A stretch of DNA of 43,256 nucleotides. Source: an uncultured Bacilli bacterium (GTDB taxonomy: Bacteria > Bacillota_I > Bacilli_A > RF39 > UBA660). This document shows positions 14,068 to 36,579 of the stretch, piece after piece. The notes beneath the pieces were generated by a model. That model searched no databases. It had not been told where the DNA came from and saw only the letters and a program-made list of their open reading frames with translations. Position 1 is the stretch's first letter. Every line of letters begins with the position of its first letter. The DNA lies in NCBI GenBank assembly GCA_947626535.1, contig CANQSO010000004.1:1-43256 (forward strand), written 5' to 3'. The position numbers were made by a program, and so were the translations under genes.

Positions 14068-15585
14068 CTAACGTTTAAATTTAAATGTTCTTTCTAATGT
14101 TAACCATTTTTGATCTTTTTCACTTAATGATAATGGTGTTCCATCTTCTAAAGTATAATTACTAGCTACGGCATTACCAGGATAATTACCAACAACTTCT
14201 GGCCAAGCTATATTAATATTTGGATCATTCCAAGCAAGACCACTTTCATCACCAGGATGATAAAAATCTGTACATTTATAGCAAAATTCTGCAGTATCAC
14301 TTAAAACTAGAAAACCATGGGCAAAACCTTCAGGAATATAAAATTGTTTTTTATTTTCGGCCGATAATATAACTCCATACCATTTACCATAAGTATTACT
14401 ATCAGCTCTTAAATCTACAGCAACATCAAAGACTTTACCATTTATTACTCTTACAAGTTTTCCTTGCGGATATTCTTTTTGAAAATGTAACCCTCTTAGA
14501 ACACCTTTTTTAGAACAACTTTGATTATCTTGAACAAAATTCATATTCAAGCCAAAACTTGCTAAATCTCTAGCATTATAGGTTTCCATAAAATATCCCC
14601 TATCATCACCATGAACAGTAGGCATTATTTCATATAATCCTTCAATTGGACATTTACTAACACTAATTTGACTCATTTTATCACTTTCCTTTTCTTTTTT
14701 TATATTTAATTCTTTTAAATACCTTTTAACGGCGTCTTGCCAATTTGGTAAAGGTTCAAAACCTTTTTCTTGTAATTTACTTGTATCTAAACGACTATTT
14801 TTAGGTCTTTTAGCTAAAGTAGTTCCATATTCTTCAGTAGTAACTGGCGTAACTTTAGTGTTTATTCCAGCTTCTTGATATAAATACTTAGTTAAATCAT
14901 ACCAAGAAATATATTCTCCTTCATTAGTAGCATGATATATTCCGTATTCTTCCTTTTCGGACATATCAAGCAAAAGACGGGCTAAATCTTTTGTATAAGT
15001 AGGTCTTCCAATTTGGTCATTAACAACTTTTACTTCATCATGATTTTTAGAAACATTTATCATTGTCTTTAAAAAATTTTTACCATTTATACCAAAAACC
15101 CAAGATATACGAACAATATAATATTTATCTAAACATTGTTTTACCGCATCTTCGCCTAAAGCTTTACTTACTCCATAATAATTTAAAGGAAAAGTAGTTG
15201 CATCATCAGGATGCCAAGGCTTATTTTCTAAACCATCAAAGACATAATCAGTACTTAAATATATCATTTTAGCATCAAGATCATGACAAATTTTTGCTAA
15301 ATTTTTAGTGCAACTATAATTACTATCAAATACTTCTTTTTTATTTTCTTCTTTTTCAGCATCATCAACTTTAGTCCAAGCTGCACAATGAATAATAACA
15401 TCAGGATTTATTTCTTTTACTTTTTCTTCTAATGAAGTAAAATTTAATAAATCTAGTTTTAAGTATGAGTCTAAATTATACTCATCTTTTCTTCCACAGC
15501 CTACAACTTCATAACCTCTTTTTAAACACTCTTTATAAACATCGTATCCTAATTGTCCAGTAACCCCAGTAACTAAAACTTTCAT
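14068..15585 (-). CDS. rmlDC: RmlD-RmlC fusion: dTDP-4-dehydrorhamnose reductase / 3,5-epimerase
   Basis: A 505-residue fusion of the last two steps of dTDP-L-rhamnose synthesis. Residues 1-300 are an RmlD-type SDR: GVTGQLGYDVY, STDYVFDG, and catalytic YYGVSK. Residues about 315-500 are RmlC: the catalytic His in GVLRGLHFQ, VAVDLR, and FYIPEGFAHGFLVLS. A linker rich in Lys/Glu joins them. The usual order of action is epimerase then reductase, so the fusion order is reversed. The ATG at 15585 is chosen because a strong site aaaggag lies before it; an upstream ATG lacks one. RmlA and RmlB are not in the window. A 16-bp palindrome lies just upstream. Confidence 0.93.
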   Translation of the reverse strand: MKVLVTGVTGQLGYDVYKECLKRGYEVVGCGRKDEYNLDSYLKLDLLNFTSLEEKVKEINPDVIIHCAAWTKVDDAEKEENKKEVFDSNYSCTKNLAKICHDLDAKMIYLSTDYVFDGLENKPWHPDDATTFPLNYYGVSKALGEDAVKQCLDKYYIVRISWVFGINGKNFLKTMINVSKNHDEVKVVNDQIGRPTYTKDLARLLLDMSEKEEYGIYHATNEGEYISWYDLTKYLYQEAGINTKVTPVTTEEYGTTLAKRPKNSRLDTSKLQEKGFEPLPNWQDAVKRYLKELNIKKEKESDKMSQISVSKCPIEGLYEIMPTVHGDDRGYFMETYNARDLASFGLNMNFVQDNQSCSKKGVLRGLHFQKEYPQGKLVRVINGKVFDVAVDLRADSNTYGKWYGVILSAENKKQFYIPEGFAHGFLVLSDTAEFCYKCTDFYHPGDESGLAWNDPNINIAWPEVVGNYPGNAVASNYTLEDGTPLSLSEKDQKWLTLERTFKFKR

Positions 15586-15627
15586 TTTCGACTCCTTTGT
15601 AGATTTTACTAGTTTTAATAAATATAA

Positions 15628-15643
15628 TTTTATCATGATAAAA
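15628..15643. promoter_or_regulatory. 16-bp palindrome upstream of rmlDC
   Basis: Perfect palindrome TTTTATCATGATAAAA, 43 bp before the rmlDC start, in a 150-bp gap with several AT-rich -10-like hexamers. It suits a dimeric regulator, though AT-rich palindromes also occur by chance. Confidence 0.4.
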
Positions 15644-15723: not shown

Positions 15724-15750
15724 TTAAAAAACAAGGTTTTAAGCCTTGCT
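15724..15750 (-). terminator. possible terminator after acyltransferase gene
   Basis: On the minus strand GCAAGG-loop-CCTTGT followed by T-rich sequence, overlapping the stop codon of the 15739-16776 gene. The stem is short, so it may only partly separate rmlDC from the genes upstream. Confidence 0.5.
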
Positions 15751-16776
15751 CAACTTCTTAACTCTTTTAGGAATTTTAATATGAGATAAAATTATATTTA
15801 AGATTTTAGCCAAAATTATACTTACAATTATAAATGCAATATCACAAATAAATGTTGTACTTATTTTAGTGGGCTTTATCTTTAAAAACTCTTGTACAAC
15901 ATGCATAAGTACAATATGCATTACATAAATTTCTAATGTAAATCCTCCTAAATAATTATAGAATTTTTTTATTATTTTTAAATCAAACAATTCAAAAATA
16001 ATATTTAATACAAATACCACTCCAACAGATGCTAAACCTAAATATATTCTTAAAAAAATAGTTGAATAAATTTTAAAAAAAGAAATTTTATTTAATACAA
16101 AAAATAACGGTCCATAGCTAAATAAAAGTAATAGAAACAATATATATATATTTTGTTTAATTGGCTTTTTTTCATAAACATTAGGTCCTAGCAACGCTCC
16201 AACAATAAATATAGGAATTCTTGTCAAACATATTTCGTATTTTATAAATAACGAGTTACTATAAGTACAAAATATAAATATAAATAAGATATAAATCCCT
16301 AATCCAATTATTATTAGCTTATATTTTTTTTCATTTAAAAACTTATATATTACCGGATATATAAAATAACATATTAATATGCACATTAAAAACCAAAAAG
16401 AATTTAATTGTTTTCTAGAAAAAGTAATTTCATGAAAGAAAGCATTAACATTATGACCCCAAAAAATATATCTAATAATCATATATGGTACACAGAATAA
16501 TATATATACTTTTAAAATTTTAAAAATTCTTTTTTTTAGGAATTCTTTTTTATTATTAGATTTCTTTAATGAAAAATAAGAACAAATACCAGCCATTAAT
16601 AAAAAAATTTCCACTCCAATATTTCCGCTTTTACATATATAAACACTTATCCAATTAAAATTAATTGTTTTAAAAATTTGAAAAAGATGAAATATAATTA
16701 TCCAAAATATTGAAAAGCCATATATTTCATTTCGATATTTACTTAAATTACCCCAATTAAATATATCCTTTTTCAT
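15739..16776 (-). CDS. acyltransferase 3 family membrane protein
   Basis: A 345-residue protein with about ten membrane spans, of the acyltransferase 3 (OafA/WecH-like) family that O-acetylates or otherwise acylates surface glycans. The first span carries the expected His in WIIIFHLFQ, followed by GNIGVEIFLLMAGICSYF, and the middle has FWFLMCILICYF. It lies directly after the flippase gene (5 bp) within the polysaccharide locus, so the likely substrate is the repeat unit made here. A second, phase-interrupted acyltransferase is at 23164-24209. Confidence 0.85.
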   Translation of the reverse strand: MKKDIFNWGNLSKYRNEIYGFSIFWIIIFHLFQIFKTINFNWISVYICKSGNIGVEIFLLMAGICSYFSLKKSNNKKEFLKKRIFKILKVYILFCVPYMIIRYIFWGHNVNAFFHEITFSRKQLNSFWFLMCILICYFIYPVIYKFLNEKKYKLIIIGLGIYILFIFIFCTYSNSLFIKYEICLTRIPIFIVGALLGPNVYEKKPIKQNIYILFLLLLFSYGPLFFVLNKISFFKIYSTIFLRIYLGLASVGVVFVLNIIFELFDLKIIKKFYNYLGGFTLEIYVMHIVLMHVVQEFLKIKPTKISTTFICDIAFIIVSIILAKILNIILSHIKIPKRVKKLSKA

Positions 16777-18320: not shown

Positions 18321-20333
18321 TTAATTATTTTTATTTAGATAGGAAATATTCATTATGTGAGCAATTTGCTCTTTTTTTGGTGGTAATTTCATATAATCAC
18401 CATAAAGATTATGTAAATAATAATCCCAACAAGAAAATGTTTTAACTTTCATTTTTTCAAAATCAACTTTAACTATTTTATCAACTTCACTTTTTAACAT
18501 TTTTTCTTTAGGACCATAACCCCATGCAATCCCACCAACATATTTAACTTTTTCATAAGGGTATTTTAAACATAATTTATTAATTCTTTTTACATAAAAT
18601 TTTTTAGGTAAAAAATCAACAAAAAATTTTACAAATGGTTTTAAAATTTTTTCAATTTTAGTTTTAGATCCTTCTATTACTCTTTCATCTTTAAGTTTTC
18701 TTATCATCAATAACTTGCGCCAAAAAATTGATTTTTGAAAAATCCTTTTGGTTTTTCGATCACTTTCTGGCAAACCGTCTAAAGGGAAAACATCAATCCA
18801 CATATGAGTATCATATTCATCTAATGAATTATATCTTTCCATAACAGTATTTAAATTGTATATTTTGCAAAATGGGTCATTTAAATTTCCTAATTCAAAG
18901 GAATGAACATCTAAAGATTCATCAATCTTTTTAGTTAAAGCAATACTTTGCAGTTTCATATAATCTGGTCTAGGCATTAAAATATCAACATCATCATCCC
19001 AAGGAATAAAACCTTTATGCCTAATCGCTCCAAGTAAAGTTCCTCCACATACAAAATATGTAAGTTGATTTTCATCAAAATATTTTATGATTTTTTTTAG
19101 CATATTTTTTTCTTCTTTTTGAATTTCCTTAAGAGATAAGCCATCATTTGTTTTTTTATTTTTATTTATTGAAATAAAATGAACTAAAATTTCAGAAAAC
19201 TGTAATAGAAAAATATTTACTGATATTTTTGTTAAATGAGGATCTATTAAAGAATGGATAAATATTATAATTAATAGCAAATTTGAAAAATCATTTTTAT
19301 TTTGATGATTATATTCTACTAATTTATAAAATAACCACAATAATAGTAAAATAAATACAGAACCAAAATTAAGCAATAAGTTTATGTATGAATTATCGAC
19401 ATAATTCATAGCACCCTTCTTAATTTTCATTTTAATATCGTAATTAGTTACCCAATCAATATTACGACCAAATAAATTAATTGGATAAGATTTTATGGCA
19501 TTATTTTGCAGATATATTCGACCACTAAAAGTTTTATTAACTTTAACCATAAATTCATTTTTAGGATTATACATTAAACTAATTGTTACACTAAAAATTA
19601 TTAAAAGCAAAGGTATAAGCTTAGCAAAAAAAGTTATAATTTTATTAATTTTATGGTGATACTTTTGTAAAATATTATATGCCATTGTTAATACTATTAA
19701 AATTATCGAAGAATATAGTCCATTTCTTGATGCAGTGACTAAGTAAAATATAAAACTAACTGATGTTAAACCTATGTAATCAACTGCTTTCAAATTTTTA
19801 TTTTTTAAAAACACAAATAACAAACATATGCCCCAAATGTAACCAGCAATACTTGGAGGATATTTAAATCCTAAAGCATATCTCGTAATAGTACCTCTAG
19901 CTGATACATAATTTTCTATTACGCCAAATAATGATAAAACAGCTATTACACTAATAAGAATTATTTCAGCAATAAATAATTTTTTAACAAATTCTTTAAA
20001 AGGAATATTTTTAGCACCAACAATTAAAATAAATAACTGCAAAAAATATCTATTTCCACAGAAAAATGCAATAAATAATAAATAAATAAACAAAATAAAT
20101 AATGTACCAAAAGTTCTAGATGTATATTTAGAAATATCACAAACTAATATTTTTATCATCACTAAAAAAACAGCTAAATATTTTAATAATGAAAATATTG
20201 TTCCATATTGAACTGCTAAAACGCTATTATCATCTAAAATAAAAGCTAAAATAAACAATATAGTTGAATAAGTATAAATATTATTACTATGCTTTTTTAT
20301 AAAATTACATATTGAGTTAAATAACTTTTGCAT
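18321..20333 (-). CDS. Wzy-like polymerase fused to a LicD domain
   Basis: A 670-residue two-part protein. Residues 1-390 form about ten to twelve membrane spans with a Wzy-like pattern: SARGTITRYALGFKYPPS in an outer loop, TASRNGLYSS, and a second large loop around FSGRIYLQNNAIKSYPINLFG. Residues 400-665 are a cytoplasmic LicD domain: CGGTLLGAIRHKGFIPWDDD at about 428-447, then VDILMPRPDY. LicD enzymes transfer phosphocholine or phospho-alditols from CDP donors. The frame is open throughout, with no internal stop near the join. The usual state is two separate genes. It sits between wzx and a stand-alone licD, so one membrane protein may both polymerise and decorate. The polymerase call rests on topology and context. 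Confidence 0.8.
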   Translation of the reverse strand: MQKLFNSICNFIKKHSNNIYTYSTILFILAFILDDNSVLAVQYGTIFSLLKYLAVFLVMIKILVCDISKYTSRTFGTLFILFIYLLFIAFFCGNRYFLQLFILIVGAKNIPFKEFVKKLFIAEIILISVIAVLSLFGVIENYVSARGTITRYALGFKYPPSIAGYIWGICLLFVFLKNKNLKAVDYIGLTSVSFIFYLVTASRNGLYSSIILIVLTMAYNILQKYHHKINKIITFFAKLIPLLLIIFSVTISLMYNPKNEFMVKVNKTFSGRIYLQNNAIKSYPINLFGRNIDWVTNYDIKMKIKKGAMNYVDNSYINLLLNFGSVFILLLLWLFYKLVEYNHQNKNDFSNLLLIIIFIHSLIDPHLTKISVNIFLLQFSEILVHFISINKNKKTNDGLSLKEIQKEEKNMLKKIIKYFDENQLTYFVCGGTLLGAIRHKGFIPWDDDVDILMPRPDYMKLQSIALTKKIDESLDVHSFELGNLNDPFCKIYNLNTVMERYNSLDEYDTHMWIDVFPLDGLPESDRKTKRIFQKSIFWRKLLMIRKLKDERVIEGSKTKIEKILKPFVKFFVDFLPKKFYVKRINKLCLKYPYEKVKYVGGIAWGYGPKEKMLKSEVDKIVKVDFEKMKVKTFSCWDYYLHNLYGDYMKLPPKKEQIAHIMNISYLNKNN

Positions 20334-20348
20334 TTCAATCGCACCTTT

Positions 20349-21251
20349 CTATAATTTTAGATCGACAAAAATATGAGCTTCTATATCGTTTTTAGATGGC
20401 AATTCCATATAATTACCATACATATTTTTTAAATAACCATCATAATCTTTAGCAACAGGAAATTTATACTTTTTTTCAAAATCAAATAAAATTGTTTTAC
20501 AAAATTTATCTCTTTCATACATTTCCTTAAAAAAGTGGTTGCGTCCAGTAGGTACTGTAACATATCTTGATTTATTATTCTTACACATGGCATTTACTTT
20601 ATTCCAAGCATGAGTCATTGTATCTAAAGAGATCCATGATAAAAGACGACCTATATTAACCTTAAACTTAAAAGTTTTAGATAATTCTTTATCTTCTTTA
20701 ACCATATCTAAATAAAAATCTTTGTTTTTATAAAAATTACGACAAGATAAAAGAAAACCAAAAACATAAGATAAAAAACCATGTAAATATCTTAAAGGGA
20801 CAAAATTATAAGTATTTTCAATTATAAAAATATCAATATAAACCCCAGCTTCTTCATTTTCCATATCTTCTCTTGCTCGATAAATAGTTCCTTTTTTTCT
20901 TACTCTAGCAAAACCTAAACCATAATTTTTAGTTTTTTCTGGAGTATGTAACCAATATTTATCACCAAACTCTTTTAAGAAAACCGTAGAAAATTTTTCA
21001 TAATCTTTTCTAAGCATATTTATATCAAAATCATCATCCCAAGGAATAAACCCATGATGTCTTACGGCACCTAAAGCACTTCCTCCTCCTAAATTATAAT
21101 TAAGATGATATTTTTGACAAACAAAATTAATATCATCTGCAATTTCTAATATAGTTTTTTGTAATTGTTTTAATTGTTTATCACTTAATTTTTTTAAATT
21201 TTTATTTTTATTATTCAAACTTTTAAAGGCACTTACTGTTGATAATCCCAT
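20349..21251 (-). CDS. licD: LicD family phosphotransferase
   Basis: A 300-residue cytoplasmic LicD-type nucleotidyltransferase-fold protein with GGGSALGAVRHHGFIPWDDD (about residues 54-73), then FDINMLRKDY, and a C-terminal MYGNYMELP. Relatives attach phosphocholine, phosphoethanolamine or phospho-alditols to surface glycans; the animal kin FKRP and fukutin use CDP-ribitol. With a TarI-like cytidylyltransferase in the same locus, a phospho-ribitol-type donor is plausible, but the substrate cannot be read from sequence. It precedes the fused LicD by 15 bp. Confidence 0.9.
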   Translation of the reverse strand: MGLSTVSAFKSLNNKNKNLKKLSDKQLKQLQKTILEIADDINFVCQKYHLNYNLGGGSALGAVRHHGFIPWDDDFDINMLRKDYEKFSTVFLKEFGDKYWLHTPEKTKNYGLGFARVRKKGTIYRAREDMENEEAGVYIDIFIIENTYNFVPLRYLHGFLSYVFGFLLSCRNFYKNKDFYLDMVKEDKELSKTFKFKVNIGRLLSWISLDTMTHAWNKVNAMCKNNKSRYVTVPTGRNHFFKEMYERDKFCKTILFDFEKKYKFPVAKDYDGYLKNMYGNYMELPSKNDIEAHIFVDLKL

Positions 21252-21270: not shown

Positions 21271-22371
21271 TTATAAATTTTTAACTAATTCTAAAGCCGC
21301 TTTAATTACTTTATCCATATCATAATATTGATAATTTCCTAATCTTCCTCCAAATATAACACGTTTTTCCTTTGAAGCTAATTTTTTATATTCTTCATAA
21401 AGCTTAGAATTTTTTTCATCATTAATTGGATAATAAGCTTCATCACCTATATGCCAATCACTTGGATATTCCCTCGTGATAATTGTACCATGACAATCAT
21501 TAAATTCAAAGTGTTTATGTTCAATTACCCTAGTATAAGGTATTTCTCTATCAGTATAATTTATAACAGCATTACCTTGATAATTATCAATATTTTCTAA
21601 TACTTCATTTTCAAATTTTAAACTACGATATTCTAAATTACCTAATTGATAGTCAAAATATTCATCAATCATTCCTGTATATAAAATTTTATCAGCTAAA
21701 GCATTATATTTTTCTTTTTCTTTTAAATAATCGACATTTAACTTTACATCACAATGTTCAAGCATTTTCTCAATAATAACATTGTAACCTCCAATAGGAA
21801 TACCTTGATAACGGTCATTAAAATAATTATTATTAAATGTAAATCTTACTGGTAATCTTTTAATAATAAAGGCTGGTAAATCCTTACAATCCCTATTCCA
21901 TTGTTTTTCAGTATAACCTTTAACTAGTTTTTCATAAATATCACGGCCAACTAAACTAATAGCTTGTTCTTCTAAGTTTTGTGGTTCTCTACCATTAAGT
22001 TCTTTTTTCTGTTCTTCTATTTTTTTCTTAGCATCATCAGGCGTTATAACGTCATCCCATAGTTTAGTAAAAGTATTCATATTAAATGGCATATTATAAA
22101 GTTCTCCTTTATAATTAGAAATTGGACAATTTATATAATTATTAAATTCACAAAACTGATTAACATAATTCCATATTTCTTTATCTGATGTATGGAATAT
22201 ATGAGCTCCATATTTATGAACATTAATACCATTTATATTTTCACAATATATATTTCCACCAATATGATTTCTTCGATCAATTACTAAAACTTTCTTACCT
22301 TTTTTAGACATTTCATAAGCAAATGTTGTTCCAAACAATCCTGCACCAACTACCAAATAATCATATTTCAT
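21271..22371 (-). CDS. glf: UDP-galactopyranose mutase
   Basis: A 366-residue FAD enzyme converting UDP-galactopyranose to UDP-galactofuranose. Motifs: GAGLFG (residues 8-13), IDRRNHIGGNIY, KYGAHIFHT, EYFDYQLGNLEYRSLKFE, and a C-terminal FGGRLGNYQYYDMD. The length fits the family. It starts 2 bp after the DUF4422 glycosyltransferase gene, so the glycan probably contains galactofuranose. Confidence 0.97.
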   Translation of the reverse strand: MKYDYLVVGAGLFGTTFAYEMSKKGKKVLVIDRRNHIGGNIYCENINGINVHKYGAHIFHTSDKEIWNYVNQFCEFNNYINCPISNYKGELYNMPFNMNTFTKLWDDVITPDDAKKKIEEQKKELNGREPQNLEEQAISLVGRDIYEKLVKGYTEKQWNRDCKDLPAFIIKRLPVRFTFNNNYFNDRYQGIPIGGYNVIIEKMLEHCDVKLNVDYLKEKEKYNALADKILYTGMIDEYFDYQLGNLEYRSLKFENEVLENIDNYQGNAVINYTDREIPYTRVIEHKHFEFNDCHGTIITREYPSDWHIGDEAYYPINDEKNSKLYEEYKKLASKEKRVIFGGRLGNYQYYDMDKVIKAALELVKNL

Positions 22372-22373
22372 AA

Positions 22374-23150
22374 TTAAAAACTCCCATCATATTTTTTCTT
22401 AAAAAATTTGGCTTTTAAAAAACTAGTACCTTTCTTCCACCAATTTATTTTTTCCATATAGATAAATGGCACTTCCTTATATTTATAACCTTTATAATCT
22501 AGCCATACATCTAATAATCTTTCACTTACTCTTCCATAAAATCTAGCATGAAAAGAATCATAATTATTATTTTTCATTTTCTTTTCTAATTCAAATAAGA
22601 TATCAAATAACCAATTACAATATTCATCTAAATATTCTTTTTTCATAATAAACATATTAAATGCATGCATACTTCTTTTTTTCATAACTTTATTTACACT
22701 ATTAAGATATTCAGGATATTTTTTTGCAATTATTTTAATGGTTTCATCTAATGTTTCAATATGCATAGTATGCTTATAATGATTGTAAATGGTTTCAATC
22801 CAATATTTTCTTTTTTTAGGCACGATAATATCATAATCACTTAAATATTTTTGTAATTCATTTTCAGTTAAAATTGATTCAAATTTATTTTTATTTTTTT
22901 TCTTTGATGCAAAATATCTTCGATAATGGACTAAACCAATGTAATCAGCATCAAGATTTTTCCAAGCCCAATAAAGACCTGTTAATTCACAAAAATAAGG
23001 ATTTTTTTTAGATATATTTTTACCAGTATTATCTTTTTGAAAACCTATATCTTCTTTACCTTCTGCTCCAACATGAAGTGGTAAATACATTTTTTCTTTT
23101 GGCATTTGATATTTTTTATGGGCTGCAATAATTATTTTAATACTTTTCAT
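22374..23150 (-). CDS. DUF4422 glycosyltransferase
   Basis: A 258-residue cytoplasmic protein of the DUF4422 family, found in capsular and exopolysaccharide loci as a presumed (galacto)glycosyltransferase. Typical motifs: IIIAAHKKYQMP at the start, PLHVGAEG, NPYFCELTGLYWAWKN, and DYIGLVHYRRYF, which provides the family's conserved HYRR. It is the only clear stand-alone glycosyltransferase in this operon apart from the priming enzyme, so others must act from elsewhere. It lies next to glf. Confidence 0.88.
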   Translation of the reverse strand: MKSIKIIIAAHKKYQMPKEKMYLPLHVGAEGKEDIGFQKDNTGKNISKKNPYFCELTGLYWAWKNLDADYIGLVHYRRYFASKKKNKNKFESILTENELQKYLSDYDIIVPKKRKYWIETIYNHYKHTMHIETLDETIKIIAKKYPEYLNSVNKVMKKRSMHAFNMFIMKKEYLDEYCNWLFDILFELEKKMKNNNYDSFHARFYGRVSERLLDVWLDYKGYKYKEVPFIYMEKINWWKKGTSFLKAKFFKKKYDGSF

Positions 23151-23163
23151 ATATTCTTTCCTT

Positions 23164-24209
23164 TCAATTCAAAATTTTTTTAAATAATGGTAATTTAGCC
23201 AATATAACAGAAGTAATAAGTGATAAAACAAACGCATATATATAAAAAGCAATTTCACCAACAAATATTGGAAGTACAATTGGATATAAATGAACACCTT
23301 TATTTAACAAGTTAATCCAAAAACAATGAACTAAATAAATGGTAAAACTATATTTTGAAATAATATTAATGAATTTATTTGGTTTTATCTTTATTTTTTC
23401 AGTAGAAAATAATTTCACTATAGCCATTGTTTCTAAAATCATAAATGCACTTACTTGAGAATTATAAACATTAAAATAACAACATAAAAAGTAACCAATT
23501 GTGCCAATAATTCCACCAATATAAAGATACTTTTCTTTAATAATATTTGTACAAGTAATATAATAACCACATAAATAGATAAAAATAAAATTTAATCCTT
23601 CTAAATAAAATGTTGAAATATTTAATTTAAAAATTTGATTTATTGTAGGAACTAAAGTTGATAGTATTAATAAACAAATTAATGTAAATTTTACTTCTAT
23701 CTCACTAGAATATTTAACAATTTTTTTTAATAATGGTGTCAAAATATAAAGTCCTATTAAACAATACAAATACCACATATGTGACCAAGCATTTCCTTGT
23801 ACTAAATTACTAAGTGCAGTTAATATAATGTTTATTAAATTTTTATCAGTGCTTGATATATATGATTCAATAAAAGCAAATGTTAATCCAAATGTAGCTA
23901 AAACTAAAAGCATTCGTTTAATATATGTTTTAATTTTATCAAGAGTAACTTCTTTTTTTGGATTTAATAATAAACATCCTGTTATCATAATAAAACAGGG
24001 AACAGCAAATCGAGTTATTGTTCTTAAAAAAACAAAATCAAGTAACCATCTATCTTTGCCTAATACCCCCCCCCCATATAAATTACATTATTTACAATAT
24101 TAATATTTTCAGCTTGTATCCATCCTTCAATCACGTGAATCATAATAACTGCTAAACAAGCAATAGCTCTTAAAGATACAATCCATTCAATTCTTTTTTC
24201 TTTCTTCAT
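23164..24209 (-). CDS. acyltransferase 3 family protein, frame broken at a G10 tract (phase-variable)
   Basis: The reading frame starts at 24209 (site aggtga) with RIEWIVSLRAIACLAVIMIH, carrying the family His in the first span. After Met45 it enters ten G (24066-24075); in the present state the next codons are Tyr and a stop. From the end of the tract the other frame is open to 23164 and continues the family pattern: FAVPCFIMITGCLLLNP, then eight or so membrane spans. Eleven or eight G would restore a 348-residue protein; ten gives about 49 residues. This is the form expected of slipped-strand phase variation, with the sequenced molecule OFF. A short downstream start at 23988 lacks the catalytic His. 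It probably acylates the locus polysaccharide. Confidence 0.85.
24066..24075. repeat. poly-C/poly-G tract, 10 bp
   Basis: Ten consecutive C on the plus strand (G on the coding strand), remarkable in an AT-rich genome, inside the acyltransferase coding region directly after codon 45's first two bases. The two flanking frames differ by one base. Confidence 0.95.
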
Positions 24210-24217
24210 TTATTCAC

Positions 24218-25213
24218 CTACTCTATTGTATATTTTTGATTATTAGATTGAAGTTGAATATAAGTATTACCATCATTTAATTTTACTTCTTCGCCATTAG
24301 GATATGTATATATAGTTTTTGATTTTCGATTTTCTTTTGACCATTTAATTGGAGTTGCATAACCATTTGTAATATACATACCTTCTCCACTACCAACTGT
24401 TTCTAATTCCCAATAGTAATTATCACTAGCCATTCTAGTATTTATTTTTTGAATAATAATATTTTTAGCTGTATATTGTTCTTTAGTTAAATAATCAATA
24501 TGTTTGTTGCCATTTACACTTCTTAAATAAAGCTTTTTATCACTGTCATATTCATAAGAAGTATTAGATACATTAGAAGATGGAATATATATTTTATTAG
24601 CAACTTCTCCACTATCATTTAAATTAACTTCTTGCAAAGAATAATTTAAAACTAAGCCTTTATCAGATGTTAGGGAAAAACCTTTTTCTTTAGATAAATC
24701 TCTTACTTTTTGAATACTTGTATAACCAGTATGTTCTATTGCTAAATTAAGAGGATTTTCTCGCCAAAAAGCTGAATCATATAAACCATTTAAGCTTTCA
24801 ACATTAAGAGATCTTATTTGATCTTTAGCATAATGGCTCCAGCCCCAATGAACAAATATAGCATCTTGTTCAAAAACATAATCTAAAAAATTATGTCTTG
24901 CACTTCTAATTGTTCCTACTTTTAAATCATCGATATCTTTATAAAAAGCAAGCAATCTTGTCATGTTACCTTCAACTGGTATTTCATAAACCATATAAGC
25001 TTTTTGTAATCCTTGTTGAACTTTTACAGCAACTGTAGCATTATTAACTACAACAGCAAATGGTCTAGTATTAGAATTTACATCAACAATATCAATTTTT
25101 TCTTTAACCGGAATAGCTTCTTCTACTTCCGGTGATTCGACAATTGGTTCTTCTTTTTTCCCACAACCACAAAAAATAAACAAAATGAAAATTAAACTTG
25201 CAATTTTTTTCAT
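24218..25213 (-). CDS. DUF3048 domain lipoprotein (YerB-like)
   Basis: A 331-residue secreted lipoprotein: signal peptide with lipobox-like FIFCGC, an acidic Glu/Pro linker, then the DUF3048 N- and C-terminal domains (NTRPFAVVVNN, LQKAYMVYEIPVEGNMTRLLAF, GTIRSARHNFLDYV, FVHWGWSHYA, and IQKINTRM near the end). YerB-like proteins are of unknown function. It overlaps the upstream sugar transferase gene by 4 bp and is followed 8 bp later by the acyltransferase, so it belongs to the polysaccharide operon. An extracytoplasmic role in glycan assembly is inferred from position only. Confidence 0.88.
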   Translation of the reverse strand: MKKIASLIFILFIFCGCGKKEEPIVESPEVEEAIPVKEKIDIVDVNSNTRPFAVVVNNATVAVKVQQGLQKAYMVYEIPVEGNMTRLLAFYKDIDDLKVGTIRSARHNFLDYVFEQDAIFVHWGWSHYAKDQIRSLNVESLNGLYDSAFWRENPLNLAIEHTGYTSIQKVRDLSKEKGFSLTSDKGLVLNYSLQEVNLNDSGEVANKIYIPSSNVSNTSYEYDSDKKLYLRSVNGNKHIDYLTKEQYTAKNIIIQKINTRMASDNYYWELETVGSGEGMYITNGYATPIKWSKENRKSKTIYTYPNGEEVKLNDGNTYIQLQSNNQKYTIE

Positions 25214-25863
25214 TTTGCACCCTCCTTTTTTATAACCGCAAAAATAGTATCAAAAATAATTTGTAAATCTAATAAAACACCACAATGATCTATGTAATAT
25301 AGCTCCATTTTTATTCGCTCTTTATAAGAAATATTGTTTCTTCCATTACTAGCCCAATAACCTGTTAAGCCCGGACGCATAGATAAAAATTTAGCTTTCC
25401 TTTTACCATAATATTCTACTTCATCAGGAACAACTGGTCTAGGTCCTATTAAAGACATATCCCCAATTAAAATATTTATAAACTGAGGAACTTCATCTAT
25501 TGAAGATTTACGTAAAAAATTACCTATTTTTGTTATTCTTGGGTCATTATCAATTTTACGATCTTTTAAATATTCTTTTCTTTTTTCCGGATTTTCTTTT
25601 AACCATTTTTCTAATATTTGATCTGCATTAGGAACCATTGTTCGAAACTTAAATATTTTAATAATTTTACCATTTTTACCTAATCTCTTTTGACGATAAA
25701 AAATACTATTAAAATCACCTGTACAAATAAAAACAATTTTAATAATAATAGTAAGAGGAATTAAAAAAACAATTCCTACTAAACTACAAATAATATCAAA
25801 TATTCTTTTAAAAAATAAATATATTTCTTTCTTTATTTTATATATATTGCCTTTTTTTTTCAT
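25210..25863 (-). CDS. polyprenyl-phosphate sugar-1-phosphate transferase (priming enzyme)
   Basis: A 217-residue bacterial sugar transferase that starts repeat-unit assembly on undecaprenyl phosphate. One N-terminal membrane segment (CSLVGIVFLIPLTIIIKIVF) precedes the core: KIFKFRTMVPNAD, FLRKSSIDEVPQFINIL, GDMSLIGPRPVVPDE, and RPGLTGYWASNGRN. The FRTM, DE-P and IGPRP elements are all present. It lacks the large multi-span N-terminal domain of WbaP, so it is the short PglC/WcaJ-C type. It is the first gene of the operon, with a promoter 40-70 bp upstream. Confidence 0.95.
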   Translation of the reverse strand: MKKKGNIYKIKKEIYLFFKRIFDIICSLVGIVFLIPLTIIIKIVFICTGDFNSIFYRQKRLGKNGKIIKIFKFRTMVPNADQILEKWLKENPEKRKEYLKDRKIDNDPRITKIGNFLRKSSIDEVPQFINILIGDMSLIGPRPVVPDEVEYYGKRKAKFLSMRPGLTGYWASNGRNNISYKERIKMELYYIDHCGVLLDLQIIFDTIFAVIKKEGAK

Positions 25864-26953: not shown

Positions 26954-28543
26954 TTAAAAATCTGCATACATTGGTTCTACGGGAATATATAATCCGCCAT
27001 AAGCTCCAAAAATAATAACATATAAAACTAAAGCATAATAAATCATCCAACGAATATATATCGGTTTTTTAGCAATTTTTTCTCTAATATTAATTCCTTT
27101 TTCTTTTATAATGCTTATAATAAAAACAATTAATAAAGTTATTCCAATTATAATTAATTCATAATTAAATAATTTTAAAGCATTTAAAGTTTTCCAATTT
27201 AAACTACTTATGTTAAATTCAGTAAAGATTTTTTTAAACATAACTAAACCAATTTTTAAACTTTGCGCCCTAAAGAAAAGTTCCCCAAAAATAACAAAAA
27301 TAGTTGTTTTAATAATTCTTATAGCTTTTATAAAAAATTGTTCAGGATTTATATGACATATTTCGTAAAAATTATTTATTGCTGGATTAAAAATATTAGC
27401 CATTAATATAAGAGCAAAATGATAAAAGCCAAAGAAAACATAATGATAAGCTGCCCCGTGCCATAAACCATTACATAACCAAACTGTACCTAAAGCAATT
27501 GTTCCAGCAACTAAAGGGCCAAAATGATTACCTATTTTCTTTCGTAAAGAATTAGTTATTTTTCTAGACATTTTGCTTAAAGAAATAGGATAAAAGATAT
27601 AGTCTTTAAACCATGTTCCTAAAGTAATATGCCATCTACTCCAAAATTCTGAAATATTTTTTGAAAAAAATGGTTGACGAAAATTCTCTGGTAATTTTAT
27701 TCCAAATATTTCACCAGTACCAATAACAATATCAATTATACCTGAAAAATCCATATATAACTGAATCGTATATAAAATGGCTCCAAGCAAAAGAATTACT
27801 CCACCATATTTGTCATAACCGTTAAAAATTAATTTAACAGGCGTATTTAATCGGTCCGCTATAACTAATTTTTTTAATAAACCATAACATATTCTTTGAA
27901 TACCAAAACACATATTATGATAAGTTATTTTCTTTCCTTCATATAAATTTTCAGCTGTATCTTCATATCTTGATATAGGTCCTTCCATAATTTGTGGGAA
28001 GAAAGCTAAAAATAAAGCTAATTTAAATAAGTTATTATCGGCTTTTATCTTACCTCGATAAACATCAACTAAATAAGAAATTGCTGAAAAAGTATAAAAA
28101 GATATACCTATAGGCGCAACTAAATTAGATAATTTAAATTTTAAATTAATCTTAAACAAAGCTAAAAGATGATTAATATTTACACCAATAAAAGCCATAT
28201 ATTTAGTTAAAGTTATCATAATCATTAAAATTAAAATACCTAAAAATAAAATGCCTTTTCTTTGTTTTAAATATTTTAACTTAATTTGTTTTTTTTCTTC
28301 TTTATCTAAATCTTTAATTTGTTCTTTTTCTTCTTTTTTATTGGCATCCAACCATATGCCAAAATGATGAATACATAATGTTGCTAATAATAAATAGACA
28401 AGTAGTTTACCACTTAAAGTATATATAAAAATATAACTAGCTATTAATAAAATAAATGGTCTTTTTTTCTTGCCAACAAGTTGATAAATTAACATTACCA
28501 ATGGCAGAAATAATATCAAGAAAGTTAATTCAAAATATTGCAT
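26954..28543 (-). CDS. MBOAT family acyltransferase (DltB-like)
   Basis: A 529-residue polytopic MBOAT protein, which moves acyl or aminoacyl groups from a cytoplasmic carrier to an outside acceptor. Conserved parts: APIGISFYTFSAISYLVDVY, FPQIMEGPISRY, FRQPFFSKNISEFWSRWHIT with its WF.DY extension, and WHGAAYHYVFFGFYH, whose first His is the family's active-site residue. It is longer than typical DltB (about 400), with a Lys/Glu-rich loop around residues 75-95, and so is nearer AlgI in size. It follows the carrier-protein gene by 2 bp. Confidence 0.92.
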   Translation of the reverse strand: MQYFELTFLILFLPLVMLIYQLVGKKKRPFILLIASYIFIYTLSGKLLVYLLLATLCIHHFGIWLDANKKEEKEQIKDLDKEEKKQIKLKYLKQRKGILFLGILILMIMITLTKYMAFIGVNINHLLALFKINLKFKLSNLVAPIGISFYTFSAISYLVDVYRGKIKADNNLFKLALFLAFFPQIMEGPISRYEDTAENLYEGKKITYHNMCFGIQRICYGLLKKLVIADRLNTPVKLIFNGYDKYGGVILLLGAILYTIQLYMDFSGIIDIVIGTGEIFGIKLPENFRQPFFSKNISEFWSRWHITLGTWFKDYIFYPISLSKMSRKITNSLRKKIGNHFGPLVAGTIALGTVWLCNGLWHGAAYHYVFFGFYHFALILMANIFNPAINNFYEICHINPEQFFIKAIRIIKTTIFVIFGELFFRAQSLKIGLVMFKKIFTEFNISSLNWKTLNALKLFNYELIIIGITLLIVFIISIIKEKGINIREKIAKKPIYIRWMIYYALVLYVIIFGAYGGLYIPVEPMYADF

Positions 28544-28545
28544 TT

Positions 28546-28779
28546 TTAATCTTCCTCTTGTAATTTTTCAATTAATTTTAACATATTATCTACAGAATTA
28601 AAATTAGCTGGAATAATTTCAACAGTTGGAATGACTATATCAAATTCATCTTCTAATTCAGCAACTAAAGATAAAATTGATAATGAATCTAAATAATGTT
28701 CATCAATTAAAGTATTAAGATTTTCATAATCAACCCCAGGTTTAATATTCTCTAATATTTCTAATAAATCGTTTCTCAT
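28546..28779 (-). CDS. acyl/peptidyl carrier protein (DltC-like)
   Basis: A 77-residue acidic carrier protein with the phosphopantetheine site HYLDSLSILSLVAELEDEF (Ser at about residue 33). Size and helical layout match DltC and ACP. The start codon overlaps the stop of the decarboxylase (ATGA) and the gene is 2 bp from the MBOAT gene, so it is the dedicated carrier of this cassette rather than the fatty-acid ACP. The acpS gene at 31590-31946 may be its modifying enzyme. Confidence 0.92.
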   Translation of the reverse strand: MRNDLLEILENIKPGVDYENLNTLIDEHYLDSLSILSLVAELEDEFDIVIPTVEIIPANFNSVDNMLKLIEKLQEED

Positions 28780-29936
28780 AATTTTACCTCTCCTTCATAA
28801 TTGGGACAATTAATTTTATAACTATTAATGGTATCCCTTACTAATATTTTTTTATCACTTATTAATACAACTTTAGGCATATCTCTACTTAAAAATAAGG
28901 CAATACCTTCTGTTATTGAATAAGCTCCAACATTTTTAAAAATAAAAACGTCATCAATCTTTAATTTTGGTACTTCTAATTGTTTTACCAAAATATCATT
29001 TGTTGTACATAGTGAACCACATAAGTTTACTATTTCTTTATTTTTTTCTTTATTATTAATTATTTCATAATCTGGTATTTTCATAGCCATTGTTTGACCA
29101 TAGTATACTAAATGGTTTATTCCACCATCTAAGATTGCATATTTTTCTTTTTTATTTTCTTTTAAATCAATTACCTTTGTACAATAATAGCCACAACTAG
29201 CTACTAAACTTCGACCAATTTCTAAAATAATTTTTTTATCAGAAAAATATTTATTTAAAATGTCATTAACTTCTTTTAAAAAATTTACTTCATCAAATTC
29301 TTCTTTAAAATAATATATTGGCAACCCAGGACCATATTCTAATTCTGATAAAGTAATATGATAATTATTTTCTATCTTTAAAAATAATTCTTGTAAGTAT
29401 AAACATTCTTTTTCAATTCTTTTTAAGGAATGCTTTTGAGTTCCAGAAAAATATTCAATTCCAATAATATTTAAATATGAATTCTTTTCTTCAAAAATTT
29501 TATCTAATTTGCTTTCATCAATTCCAAATTGATTGCCACTTGTTATTCTAATTAAAATATCAATATTGTTTTGATAAGTATTACTTAGTTCATTTAATAA
29601 TTTAAATTGTTCATATGATTCAATAGTATATCTACCAATCTTTTTTTGACTTTTAAAAATATTATCAAATTCAAGTTTATTTTTATTAACACCTGATAAA
29701 ACTAATTTAGAAGAATCTATCTTTAATTTATCACAAATTTGATATTCACCATATGAACATACTTCAACTCGTTCTATATCATTAATTATTTCTTTAATAA
29801 CAAATGAATTAGCTTTAATAGCATAACAAATATCCATTTTTTTAAAAATTGATTTTAAATATTTAATTCGTTCTTTTATAATATTACAATCATAAATAAA
29901 AAGTGGCGTATTATACTTTTGAATAAGTTCTTGCAT
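28776..29936 (-). CDS. PLP-dependent fold-III decarboxylase (LysA/BtrK-like)
   Basis: A 386-residue enzyme of the diaminopimelate/ornithine decarboxylase fold-III family. The PLP Lys is Lys41 in CYAIKAN; other family blocks are VCSYGEYQIC, IEYFSGTQKHS, the phosphate-binding EYGPGLPIYY, EIGRSLVASCG, and the C-terminal CGSLCTTNDILVKQ with FKNVGAYSIT. All expected blocks appear present. The ATG at 29936 has an ideal site aaggaggt, and the gene overlaps the adenylating ligase by 26 bp and the carrier by 4. BtrK of butirosin synthesis, a relative, decarboxylates glutamate while bound to a carrier protein, which is a direct precedent. A free-substrate decarboxylase or a racemase cannot be excluded. 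Confidence 0.85.
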   Translation of the reverse strand: MQELIQKYNTPLFIYDCNIIKERIKYLKSIFKKMDICYAIKANSFVIKEIINDIERVEVCSYGEYQICDKLKIDSSKLVLSGVNKNKLEFDNIFKSQKKIGRYTIESYEQFKLLNELSNTYQNNIDILIRITSGNQFGIDESKLDKIFEEKNSYLNIIGIEYFSGTQKHSLKRIEKECLYLQELFLKIENNYHITLSELEYGPGLPIYYFKEEFDEVNFLKEVNDILNKYFSDKKIILEIGRSLVASCGYYCTKVIDLKENKKEKYAILDGGINHLVYYGQTMAMKIPDYEIINNKEKNKEIVNLCGSLCTTNDILVKQLEVPKLKIDDVFIFKNVGAYSITEGIALFLSRDMPKVVLISDKKILVRDTINSYKINCPNYEGEVKL

Positions 29937-31461
29937 TTTTACCTCCTTCAATCATTTCCAACAAATATTTTCGATCAATTTTACCATTTTTATTTAATTT
30001 AAATTCTTCAAGTTTAACAAAGTTTGTTGGTATCATATAAGGAGGAACTTTTAATTTTAATTCATTAATTATATCCTCTTTAGTAACATCGCCTATATAA
30101 AAATTATACAGTCGCGATTTTTTTTCATAAAAAATTGTTACTGTTCTTTTAATATTTTTAATTTTAGATATTTCACGATCAATTTCCTCTAATTCAATTC
30201 GATGACCCATATATTTAATTTGAAAATCTTTTCTTCCTAAGAAAACTAAATTCCCATCTTCATCATATTTTCCTAAATCACCGGTTCGATAGATTAATTC
30301 ATGATATTTATTATTTAAAGGATTTTGAATAAATGAGGTAGCCGTTTGAGAAGGAAAATTATAATAACCAAGGGCTAGGCATGAACCACTGACACATATT
30401 TCTCCAATAGTTGTACCCCCGACCCTAGGAGATATTAGTTCATTAGTTTCCACATTAAGAAGAAATACTCTTTCATTTTTAAAAGGCTTACCAATTGGAA
30501 TATATTCATCATAAGTTTTTTGACGGTCAATAATATGATATGTACAATTACAAGTTATTTCTGTTGGTCCATAAACATTAACAAATGTTGCATCTGGTAA
30601 TTTATCCATCCACATTTTTAAATGTTTTAAAGGCATTACTTCACCACTAAAAATAATTTTATTAACAGTTTTAGGAACTTTATATTCTAAGCCATGAAAA
30701 GTTGTAATTAAGCATAACGCTGATACAGCCCATATCATCGTTGTAATATTATTAGCAACAATGTAATCTAATAAATTAGTAGGCATTGAAAAATATTTTT
30801 TTGGAACAATTACTAAAGTTGCTCCAACAAAAAAAGTTGAATAAATATCTTTAACAGATACATCAAAATCAAAAGGAGCTTGATTAGCAATAATATCTTT
30901 TTCATTAATATTAAATTCATTAGTAAAAACATTAATAAAATCAATTATTGAACGATGACCAACTACTACTCCTTTAGGAACACCAGTTGAACCTGAAGTA
31001 AAATTAATATAAACAGGGTCTAAATCTATTTTTTGTTCTTTAATCGCATTAAGTGTTTCATTATCTATTTTGCCAACTAATAAATCATCAACTAATAAAA
31101 TTGTACAATCTTCAAATATTTCTTTACATTGTTGATAATTTTCTTCATTAGTTATGACAATTTTACTTTCTAAAACATTAATAATTTGATTTATTCTACT
31201 TTTAGGAAATTCTAAATTAACTAAACTATAGCAACCACCTGCATATAAAATACCAAAGAAAGTTTCTAAAGTTTTTATTCCTTTATCCATATAAACCATT
31301 ATTGGTTCATTTATTGAAATTTGACTAATTAAATTTGTTGCTATTACTTTAGATGTTTTTAATAAATCTTGATAAGTTATTTTTTCGCCTTCCTCAATAA
31401 CGGCAATTTTTTTAGCATATTTTTCACAATTTAATTCTAAATAATCTGTAACAAACTTCAT
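29911..31461 (-). CDS. amino acid adenylating ligase (DltA-like)
   Basis: A 516-residue adenylate-forming enzyme that activates an amino acid and loads it on a carrier protein. Core motifs: YINFTSGSTGVPKGVV (P-loop), APFDFDVSVKDIY with the Asp expected to hold the alpha-amino group, NVYGPTEITC, YRTGDLGKYDEDG, FLGRKDFQIKYMGHRIELEEID, and the catalytic Lys in NKNGKIDRKYL. Size fits DltA. Where DltA has FCGEVLP this protein has FSGEVMP; the Cys there is, from memory, linked to D-alanine choice, so the substrate may differ. ATG 31461 (site ggtgag) is preferred over a GTG four codons earlier. It is the first gene of the Dlt-like cassette. Confidence 0.88.
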   Translation of the reverse strand: MKFVTDYLELNCEKYAKKIAVIEEGEKITYQDLLKTSKVIATNLISQISINEPIMVYMDKGIKTLETFFGILYAGGCYSLVNLEFPKSRINQIINVLESKIVITNEENYQQCKEIFEDCTILLVDDLLVGKIDNETLNAIKEQKIDLDPVYINFTSGSTGVPKGVVVGHRSIIDFINVFTNEFNINEKDIIANQAPFDFDVSVKDIYSTFFVGATLVIVPKKYFSMPTNLLDYIVANNITTMIWAVSALCLITTFHGLEYKVPKTVNKIIFSGEVMPLKHLKMWMDKLPDATFVNVYGPTEITCNCTYHIIDRQKTYDEYIPIGKPFKNERVFLLNVETNELISPRVGGTTIGEICVSGSCLALGYYNFPSQTATSFIQNPLNNKYHELIYRTGDLGKYDEDGNLVFLGRKDFQIKYMGHRIELEEIDREISKIKNIKRTVTIFYEKKSRLYNFYIGDVTKEDIINELKLKVPPYMIPTNFVKLEEFKLNKNGKIDRKYLLEMIEGGKNARTYSKV

Positions 31462-31492
31462 TTTACTCACCACTTATTAACTTGCTAAAAAT

Positions 31493-33877: not shown

Positions 33878-34211
33878 TATCTCCACCTCCAATTAAAATG
33901 ACACCAATAATAATAATTATAATACCTATAAAATCATACCAAAATATTTGTTCTTTTAAAATTAAAGATGCTAAAATAATTGTAAAAATATAATTAGCAC
34001 TTAACATTGGTTGTAAAACCGATAAACTTCCAAATTTATATGCATAAAGCATTAATAAAGCCCCTATTCCATACAAACCAAAACCAATTATTAAATACAA
34101 AATATTATTATCAACTGATAATTTCCAAAACAATTGTCCTAAACATACACAAAAAGAAGATAATAACATTATTATTATTCCTTTTTTATTTTTTCTTAAT
34201 GATTCAATCAT
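33870..34211 (-). CDS. SMR/EamA-type half transporter, subunit 1
   Basis: A 113-residue four-span protein: IIMLLSSFCVCLGQLFWKLS, FGSLSVLQPMLSANYIFTII, GIIIIIIGVILIGG. The ATG at 34211 overlaps the stop of the GT-C gene before it (ATGATTGA) with site aaagag. With 33548-33877 it forms a presumed heterodimer with opposite topologies. Confidence 0.8.
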   Translation of the reverse strand: MIESLRKNKKGIIIMLLSSFCVCLGQLFWKLSVDNNILYLIIGFGLYGIGALLMLYAYKFGSLSVLQPMLSANYIFTIILASLILKEQIFWYDFIGIIIIIIGVILIGGGDND

Positions 34212-35634
34212 TAGTATCACTCTTTCTAAATTTTATTTTACTCATAATTATTGATATAAAATTAAAAAATATTGATAAATCTAAAATAAAACATAAATAT
34301 AATGATGGATAAAAATATCTAATTTCAAATGACTGAGTATTTATAATATAGGCCCCATAATAAAATACGGATAGCAAAAAGATAAATAGATAATAATTTG
34401 TTTTTTTATCCTTTTGCTTTTTACTTACAAATATAGCCAAAATAGTAAGAAGATAAACTATCCATGGTCTTCGTATCACAAAACCAAATAATTCATTAAA
34501 CTTATCATAACTCTTTACAAATAAAACTCTCATTTTACTATCACTAAAATTATATTTTTTCATTATATTCCAACGATTATAATTATATTCGGCATAACTA
34601 ATTTTTTTAACAATCCCTAAAGTTTTTAAAGTAAAATTTCCTTTTACTTTAAAATATGTTAATGGTTCTTTTATTATTAAATTAATATATTTACTTAAAA
34701 TAATTTTAGAATTACCTTCCTTAGAAAGATTTTCTTTATTTATTTTACTTTCAAATAAGGAATTAACTGAACCTTCTGCAGATATCTTTAATGCTTCTTC
34801 TGTTGAACCACTCCCACCTATTTCATCTAAATAATTTAAATAATTTTGTTTTTTTCCATCGTCTAAATGTTGAATAACACTTATAATTTCCCAAGCAAAA
34901 CCAGCTGAAACACTAGACATAATTTTAATATTTAAAATCATTGGTAGTAAAAAAGTTAATAAATATCCAAACATTAAACTAAAAGTTGTAAGTAATTTTA
35001 ACTTTTTATCTACCTTTAATTTATAAACATAAAATAATAATACTGGAATAACGGTAAATGCATTAGCACGATAACCAAACATCATAAAAGAGAAAAAAAT
35101 TATTAAGCCAAATTCTATAATTTTATCAAATACACTTTTATTAATTTTTATCATATCTAATAACAATATTAAATAAACTAAAGCCGCGACACATAAAATA
35201 GAAGCTTCATAATAAACAGAAACACAATATATTAACGGGCTTAATGTTAATATTATATATTTTGCTTTTAAGTAACCCTCCCCCCCATTATTTAACTTTT
35301 TACATAATAAAAAAGTAGCCTGAAAAAACATAAATGCTTGAAAAACGGTATATGAAGCAATATTACCTGTAATAACTTTAAAAAATTCCATAAAAAACGA
35401 TGGTACAACAGTTAGCCAACAACTGACATTTATTAAATTTCTTTGTCCATTTAAAATCATTTTTAAACATTTACCAATTGTTAAAGACATATTATATCTA
35501 CTATATGAATCAGAATACCATATTCCTGGATATGTTATTAAAGTACATAATATTGCTAAAAATAAACTGCCAATAATTATATTTTTATTATTTTTAATTT
35601 TTTGAATATAAAAACTTTTTTTTATGCTGTTCAT
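34204..35634 (-). CDS. GT-C-like polytopic membrane protein with G7 tract
   Basis: A 476-residue protein with about ten spans. The first outer loop reads TYPGIWYSDSYSRYN, an Asp-containing loop reminiscent of GT-C glycosyltransferases; a long hydrophilic insert (about residues 255-345) precedes the last spans. The family is not certain. The ATG at 35634 has aggag 9 bp upstream. A run of seven G (35280-35286) encodes the Gly-Gly of NNGGEG in an inner loop; the frame is presently intact. Confidence 0.5.
   Translation of the reverse strand: MNSIKKSFYIQKIKNNKNIIIGSLFLAILCTLITYPGIWYSDSYSRYNMSLTIGKCLKMILNGQRNLINVSCWLTVVPSFFMEFFKVITGNIASYTVFQAFMFFQATFLLCKKLNNGGEGYLKAKYIILTLSPLIYCVSVYYEASILCVAALVYLILLLDMIKINKSVFDKIIEFGLIIFFSFMMFGYRANAFTVIPVLLFYVYKLKVDKKLKLLTTFSLMFGYLLTFLLPMILNIKIMSSVSAGFAWEIISVIQHLDDGKKQNYLNYLDEIGGSGSTEEALKISAEGSVNSLFESKINKENLSKEGNSKIILSKYINLIIKEPLTYFKVKGNFTLKTLGIVKKISYAEYNYNRWNIMKKYNFSDSKMRVLFVKSYDKFNELFGFVIRRPWIVYLLTILAIFVSKKQKDKKTNYYLFIFLLSVFYYGAYIINTQSFEIRYFYPSLYLCFILDLSIFFNFISIIMSKIKFRKSDTND
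35280..35286. repeat. poly-C/poly-G tract, 7 bp
   Basis: Seven C on the plus strand within the GT-C-like gene, immediately beside another GGG. One base more or fewer would truncate the protein near residue 118. Confidence 0.9.
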
Positions 35635-35646
35635 AATCAAGTACTC

Positions 35647-36579
35647 CTAATTTAATTTATCTATAGATTCAATTAGATAATTAGTTTTCTTAAAAATTAA
35701 ATTTAATATTAATGATAAATATTTAATAATAATAGCATAAATCAAAAATACTCCTGTAAATCCAAAAGACATAAATAACATCGTTGATGCCCAACCTTCA
35801 ACAGTTTGTTTAGTAAAAAATGTTACTAAAGTATAAATACTTACAAAGATACTAAATAAGAACATAATCATTGTTAAAATAATGGTAGCTTTATAACTAA
35901 CATCTGTAAATAATATCAACGCATCAAAAGCATTTTTACCACGTTCTCTTTTTAGTTGTTTATCAATTTTTAAATTATTTGTTTTAGTTTGTTTATAATA
36001 TATTGAAGTTATTTTTAAACCGCAATTTGCTTGAATTGCTTTACGATAAGGAATTGTTTTATTCATAGCATTCATTCGATTAATTGCTCTTCTTGAAACA
36101 ATTCTAAAAGTTTCGGTATCAATTTTATATTGATAATTTGAAAATTTATTAAACAATTTATAAAATAATGTTGAAGATTTTTTTCTTTTGCCTTTACTAC
36201 TTGTATTAACAATATCATAACCTTCTAAAGATTTTAAATATGTTTCAAAAATTAAATCTAAATTATAATCAATATAAACCGAATCAAATTCATAAACAAA
36301 ATCTCCTATTGCTAAATCAACACCAGCATTCATAGATAATTCTAAACCTTGATAATAACTCATATTAATAACACTAACTGTAGCATTATTAACATTTTTA
36401 GCAAATTCTTTTATTTCATTTAATGAATTATCAATAGATTCATCATTAACAAAGATAATCTCATACTTTAAAAATTTATCTTCTAATACTTTATTTAATT
36501 TTAAAGCAAAATCTTTAATTATTTTTTCATTATTTCGAACATATACAACCGCTGAAATAAAATTTTTTTCTTTATTCAT
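35647..36579 (-). CDS. GT2 polyprenyl-phosphate sugar synthase (GtrB/DPM1-like)
   Basis: A 310-residue GT-A family 2 glycosyltransferase followed by two C-terminal membrane spans, the layout of GtrB-like enzymes that load a sugar on undecaprenyl phosphate. N-terminal SAVVYVRNNE, IIFVNDESIDNS, and a position equivalent to the DxD that reads EFDSVYIDY, are visible. The DxD is atypical. It overlaps the FAD oxidoreductase gene by 4 bp. It is the likely donor-making partner of the GT-C and SMR-like genes. Confidence 0.82.
   Translation of the reverse strand: MNKEKNFISAVVYVRNNEKIIKDFALKLNKVLEDKFLKYEIIFVNDESIDNSLNEIKEFAKNVNNATVSVINMSYYQGLELSMNAGVDLAIGDFVYEFDSVYIDYNLDLIFETYLKSLEGYDIVNTSSKGKRKKSSTLFYKLFNKFSNYQYKIDTETFRIVSRRAINRMNAMNKTIPYRKAIQANCGLKITSIYYKQTKTNNLKIDKQLKRERGKNAFDALILFTDVSYKATIILTMIMFLFSIFVSIYTLVTFFTKQTVEGWASTMLFMSFGFTGVFLIYAIIIKYLSLILNLIFKKTNYLIESIDKLN

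Follow-up and report, generated by a model that had tools for sequence, protein, structure and literature searches.

A putative phase-variable envelope acyltransferase gene and a large repertoire of poly-G tracts in an uncultured genus of gut Bacilli

Bacteria are known to vary their surface by changing the length of homopolymeric tracts, and phase variation is also known of an acyltransferase. In Haemophilus influenzae, oafA encodes a phase-variable acyltransferase 3 (AT3) protein that O-acetylates the LOS (PMC9558356). The phasomes of Campylobacter, Neisseria and Helicobacter hold hypermutable G/C tracts within reading frames and in intergenic regions, mainly of surface genes (PMC8355987, PMC6321876, PMC5953494). 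The tract of porA in Neisseria meningitidis is a poly-G between the -35 and -10 boxes, where 11 G give high expression, 10 G about half and 9 G switch the gene off (PMC3639595). How does the locus described here compare? It is an AT3 gene of an uncultured Bacilli bacterium, located in a stretch of 43,256 nucleotides (the window, contig C4) of a 1.53 Mb genome assembled in 140 contigs and 67.9% complete. Like oafA, it would encode a surface-glycan AT3 enzyme with phase-variable expression, but phylum and glycan are different, and the two are likened by family and phase variation and not by sequence orthology. As a repertoire, the poly-G tracts around it appear to work in the manner of a Campylobacter or Neisseria phasome; those bacteria are Gram-negative and mostly pathogens, whereas here the host is an uncultured genus of gut Bacilli in which most tracts sit in a single promoter type in front of related surface-type proteins. 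The repertoire also overlaps the targets of a diversity-generating retroelement (DGR). In these promoters the poly-G has the same placement as in porA, but there are about 30 of them instead of a single gene, with spacers of 19-20 bp at G9-G10. The DGR resembles that of Treponema denticola (PMC4891356) in its reverse transcriptase (RT), accessory gene, template repeat, remote targets and adenine-directed changes, and differs in that targets here also lie behind poly-G promoters. The T. denticola paper (PMC4891356) uses neither 'promoter' nor 'phase variation', and a limited search of open-access text found no report of poly-G promoters joined to DGR targets.

The AT3 gene had been described in an earlier note on this DNA as otherwise intact and broken exactly at ten G, and this description holds: two frames meet at the tract and both match the Acyl_transf_3 profile (Table 1). 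The 5' frame opens with an ATG at 24209, preceded by AGGTGAA, and its 44 codons, which end at the tract, encode the peptide MKKEKRIEWIVSLRAIACLAVIMIHVIEGWIQAENINIVNNVIY; at the assembled G10 length the frame stops soon past the tract and translation ends about 49 residues in. When the two parts are joined by reading a four-base word at the tract, the resulting protein has 347 residues and reaches 120.8 bits against Acyl_transf_3 (PF01757; cutoff 31 bits), covering positions 2-325 of the 326 in the profile. As read from the sequence, tract length determines how the remainder of the gene is read, the halves being parts of one domain. The same note expected G11 or G8 to restore a protein of 348 residues. 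The frame arithmetic is right for both, but only one of the two lengths gives 348 and the other gives 347. What would be left in OFF cells? OafA cannot do without the residues of the R/K-X10-H motif (PMC7448272), which is present here in transmembrane (TM) helix 1 as R14-X10-H25 (P0001/P0002). The confinement of this motif to the short N-terminal piece supports the claim of no enzyme in OFF cells. An alignment with four intact family homologues (32-34% identity) places the tract in an insert of 14 residues, between TM1 and TM2, which these homologues lack; the insert may be a site that tolerates changes in length. The window has a GC content of 23.8%, and overlapping G7 words occur five times against 0.16 expected, a number reached by none of the dinucleotide shuffles; four of the five come from the AT3 tract. 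Judged by these shuffles and by the counts for the genome and the genus below, the tract is beyond chance and of a length expected to slip.

Table 1. Coordinates of the AT3 gene, its neighbours and the DGR features (window positions unless a locus is named)
Feature	Position	Strand	Remarks
G10 tract inside AT3 coding sequence	24066..24075	-	ten C on the + strand, read as ten G in the direction of the gene
AT3 5' part, 44 codons	24076..24209	-	TM helix 1 and R14-X10-H25 motif; Acyl_transf_3 profile 2-31, 19.9 bits
AT3 3' part, 299 codons open in other frame	23164..24063	-	Acyl_transf_3 profile 53-325, 77.3 bits
DUF4422 glycosyltransferase-like gene	22374..23150	-	directly downstream of AT3; PF14393, 1.3e-94
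UDP-galactopyranose mutase	21271..22371	-	GLF 4e-83
Two LicD-family genes	18321..21251	-	longer one with N-terminal membrane region; domain matches
DUF3048 lipoprotein-like gene	24218..25213	-	directly upstream of AT3; domain match
Priming sugar transferase (Bac_transf)	25210..25863	-	7.2e-61
MBOAT (DltB-like), PLP-decarboxylase and DltA-like adenylation genes	26954..31473	-	second acylation module; domain matches
Second AT3 gene, intact, without tract	15739..16776	-	orthologue L279 in G007 broken at G11
Glycosyltransferase family 2 (GT2) gene, intact, without tract	35647..36579	-	orthologue L255 in G025 broken at G10
DGR, apparently complete, one template	L078 1259-3543		template repeat L078:1545-1644
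DGR variable repeats of five poly-G-promoter genes	L033 6705-6802; L036 13196-13295; L045 985-1084; L046 841-939; L053 5605-5702
Second DGR, RT broken	L048 3262-6780 (C62)		bAvd gene, lectin-type target

The neighbours of the AT3 gene, which also include an IspD-like gene, point to an envelope polysaccharide as the probable acceptor glycan, and the gene family together with this neighbourhood suggests that the AT3 gene may switch polysaccharide acylation. The locus has other features of its own: an RmlD-RmlC fusion gene at 14068-15636, a membrane (polymerase-like) region fused to LicD at 18321-20333, and an in-frame G7 run at 35280-35286 in a gene for a large membrane protein (34204-35640).

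Is the gene switching, or is it simply lost? It could be a recent pseudogene that suffered a frameshift in the G-run and is decaying without any switching. A few observations would fit such a fixed loss. The genus has 36 further genomes and no homologue of the gene was found in them, the evidence comes from one genome and a single allele (G10), and the nearest homologue in the family (46% identity, L073 in G311) is itself frame-broken at a different position. Still, the remainder of the sequence is open throughout and family-like, and the break coincides exactly with a type of long G-run that recurs across the genus. By our estimate from base composition, the chance of a random frame staying open for 299 codons is of the order of 1e-12; a frame this long, open past the tract in an AT-rich window (24% GC), means that this is no old pseudogene and has seen no long decay. 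Fixed loss is thus an unlikely account of the break. The homologue in G311 had been considered as a second phase-variable AT3 and was rejected, as its frame break lies away from any long G-run; AT3 relatives in the family (32-46% identity) include none with a G tract. Searches for the AT3 gene in plasmids and for its flanking DNA in viral contigs gave no match.

Under phase variation a gene should occur at several tract lengths within a population or species; with one genome per species, the comparison covered paralogues and orthologues, among which the lengths do vary. A group of surface-protein paralogues in G001, of the form MKIENYKLK...-GGG-YLLN, has the tract in an N-terminal membrane segment; it is in frame at G9 in four members (L141, L180, L181, L215) and out of frame at G10 in one (L249) and at G11 in another (L271). 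Similarly, surface-protein paralogues in G004 are in frame at G9 (L150, L200) and out of frame at G11 (L280). Tract length also differs in 13 of 25 pairs of near-identical promoters (8 or fewer mismatches across 78 bases of flank), mostly paralogues and not alleles, one pair having G11 and G10 with a single flanking-base difference. Genes of glycan and envelope synthesis show breaks at G tracts as well. In G007 a G11 tract splits the gene orthologous to the window's second AT3 gene, its halves being 79% and 71% identical to the window copy, and the GT2 orthologue in G025 is split by G10, with halves 61% and 70% identical. An MBOAT gene in G002 (L269) is split by G11 and two YfhO genes in G005 (L183) by G9, and an acylation operon in G007 (L116) combines a G10 promoter tract with in-frame G10 and G9 in its SGNH-like and GT2 genes. 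Independent G-runs in the same kinds of envelope gene fit selection for switching, and chance breakage would not produce them. The sister copies also bear on a rescue of the frame without any change in DNA, in which RNA polymerase or the ribosome slips on the G-run and expression is constitutively low. Polymerases can slip on long homopolymers. However, the several lengths seen in the sister copies indicate that change at the DNA level is available, and the sequence holds no sign of programmed frameshifting, which leaves this rescue with little credit.

Counted exactly over the 37 genomes of the genus, and summed by us, there are 113 G9, 477 G10 and 81 G11 tracts, found in 29, 34 and 25 genomes respectively; the distribution peaks at 10, with neighbours one base to either side. 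The majority of the classified tracts lie between -35 and -10 promoter boxes, chiefly of large surface-type proteins, and the rest are intragenic. The G9 sample comprised 50 promoter tracts, 15 N-terminal coding tracts (11 of them in frame and 4 out of it), 7 intragenic tracts (6 out of frame and 1 in it) and 23 unclassified ones, with classes that were assigned mechanically and of which a few are doubtful; most of the G9 set was covered, and G10 and G11 by sample. Beyond the genus the trait is patchy, as a G10 tract occurs in 68 of 193 genomes spread over the family. Could these lengths be errors of sequencing or assembly, with the true AT3 tract in frame? Long homopolymers are prone to error and many tracts are close to contig ends, but in up to 34 genomes the lengths gather at 9-11, most N-terminal G9 tracts (11/15) keep the frame, unlike what random error would leave, and the sister genomes have SPAdes-style NODE_ contig names, which suggests short reads for these sisters. 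An error of this kind is therefore very improbable. Lost mismatch repair was also considered as the cause of slippage and found no support: MutS was found in 35 of the 37 genomes of the genus (and not in the 68% complete assembly studied here), so slippage would arise from the tracts themselves.

Pattern searches of this genome, taking G8 as the lower limit, gave about 35 separate G8-G11 tracts, almost all G9 or G10. About 31 (G8-G10) belong to one promoter type, TTGACTTA-G(9,10)-(8 bp)-TATAAT, followed within a few dozen bases by an ATG (examples are L042 489-8981, L031 3898-5996 and L036 7443). A -10-like box follows 109 of the 119 TTGAC-tract sites in the loci retrieved, and in 105 of these cases the spacing is 18-20 bp; the distance between the boxes is usually 20 bp at G10 and 19 bp at G9. 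The textbook spacing is 17 bp, and the poly-G spacers here are longer. A change in spacing would be expected to alter expression, by analogy with porA (PMC3639595). Most of the genes behind these promoters encode large proteins whose N terminus holds a membrane segment; some have a C-terminal lectin-like domain (with a weak FGE-sulfatase match in one) and others finish in a GVQPVVYLSSSVKI tail. Does the AT3 tract itself act as such a spacer, driving the 274-codon downstream frame? With about 31 tracts of the genome in that role the idea comes readily, but it is barely credible, because the AT3 tract has no TTGAC before it and no TATAAT after it, and the 274 aa product that the internal ATG at 23988 would yield has neither TM helix 1 nor the R-X10-H motif. 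A descent of the AT3 tract from the promoter element was likewise rejected, the flanks having only the G-run in common.

Several further features were seen at these tracts. Most poly-G promoters of this genome (L042, L036, L045 and others) have a conserved box, GTGGTYYAAARTAAT, about 15-20 bp 5' of the -35, which is perhaps a regulator or recombination site. In two genomes, foreign-looking sequences replace the -10 box next to the G tract (L031 1-69; L096 ~4616; L044 6898; L121 103). Their features are a shared GCCTTATAATAC end and a palindromic ATGTATACGTATACAT, and they are possibly mobile elements inserted there; a Dcm-like methyltransferase was reached from one of them. A G11 at L056 2184-2194 (C106) lies where a small Hpt-like ORF meets a response regulator, behind a hybrid histidine kinase; depending on the length of the tract, ORF and regulator could be fused or kept apart. 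The promoter pattern is also present in L108, from a MAG labelled Clostridia that comes from the same rabbit study as the sister MAGs, which would suggest transfer or misbinning.

A probable second layer of variation is the DGR. The element has an RT (C74, RVT_1 2.6e-22), a template repeat and adenine-biased variable repeats, and is a DGR by these features; with the RT goes a bAvd-like gene (E 2.5e-9, under its curated cutoff), and between template and RT a 123-residue gene that none of the Pfam models matches. Ten variable repeats, on ten contigs, each differ from the template at 14-19 positions, and by our sums 150 of the 164 differences fall at template adenines, which make up 30 of its 100 bases. 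The element is presumably active. Unexpectedly, at least five genes (L033, L036, L045, L046, L053) both stand behind a poly-G promoter and carry a variable repeat. As for the second DGR, a G11 at L048:5130 was rejected as a gene tract; behind the target of that element it falls within an inverted repeat and in no clear gene.

Phase variation remains the best reading of the AT3 gene, given the genus-wide excess of G9-G11, the paralogues in and out of frame and the orthologues broken by poly-G. It is very likely that the G10 tract is a hypermutable contingency repeat in an envelope-polysaccharide AT3 gene that is currently off. The proposed mechanism is simple: slippage at the G-run during replication would alter the length of the tract, and certain lengths would join both halves into a complete AT3 enzyme. 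At the assembled G10, translation would end past the first membrane helix, leaving the enzyme off, and daughter cells would come to differ in an acyl group on the glycan. The slippage in living cells, the AT3 substrate and the surface phenotype are inferred parts of this scheme. The tract would also be one part of a large phasome, made mainly of promoters and overlapping the DGR, which the earlier note had missed. Because G-runs like that of the AT3 gene recur in dozens of surface genes of the genus, its cells very probably shuffle their surface coat through slippage at such runs. With somewhat more reserve, a two-layer diversification of the surface is the probable picture for the genus, in which poly-G promoters on dozens of proteins, a DGR rewriting in trans the tips of at least ten genes, and intragenic G-runs in glycan acyltransferase and glycosyltransferase genes would give each cell a private mix of proteins and glycans.

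Taken alone, the AT3 switch would be a further case of a well-known kind. Its setting is another matter: a dense, probable poly-G phase variation in uncultured gut Bacilli, placed in promoters as well as coding regions and on genes diversified by a DGR, while poly-G phase variation is best known in Gram-negative pathogens. Two ideas thereby become testable: that commensals may use the antigenic lottery of pathogens, and that expression switching and targeted hypermutation may cooperate on single genes.
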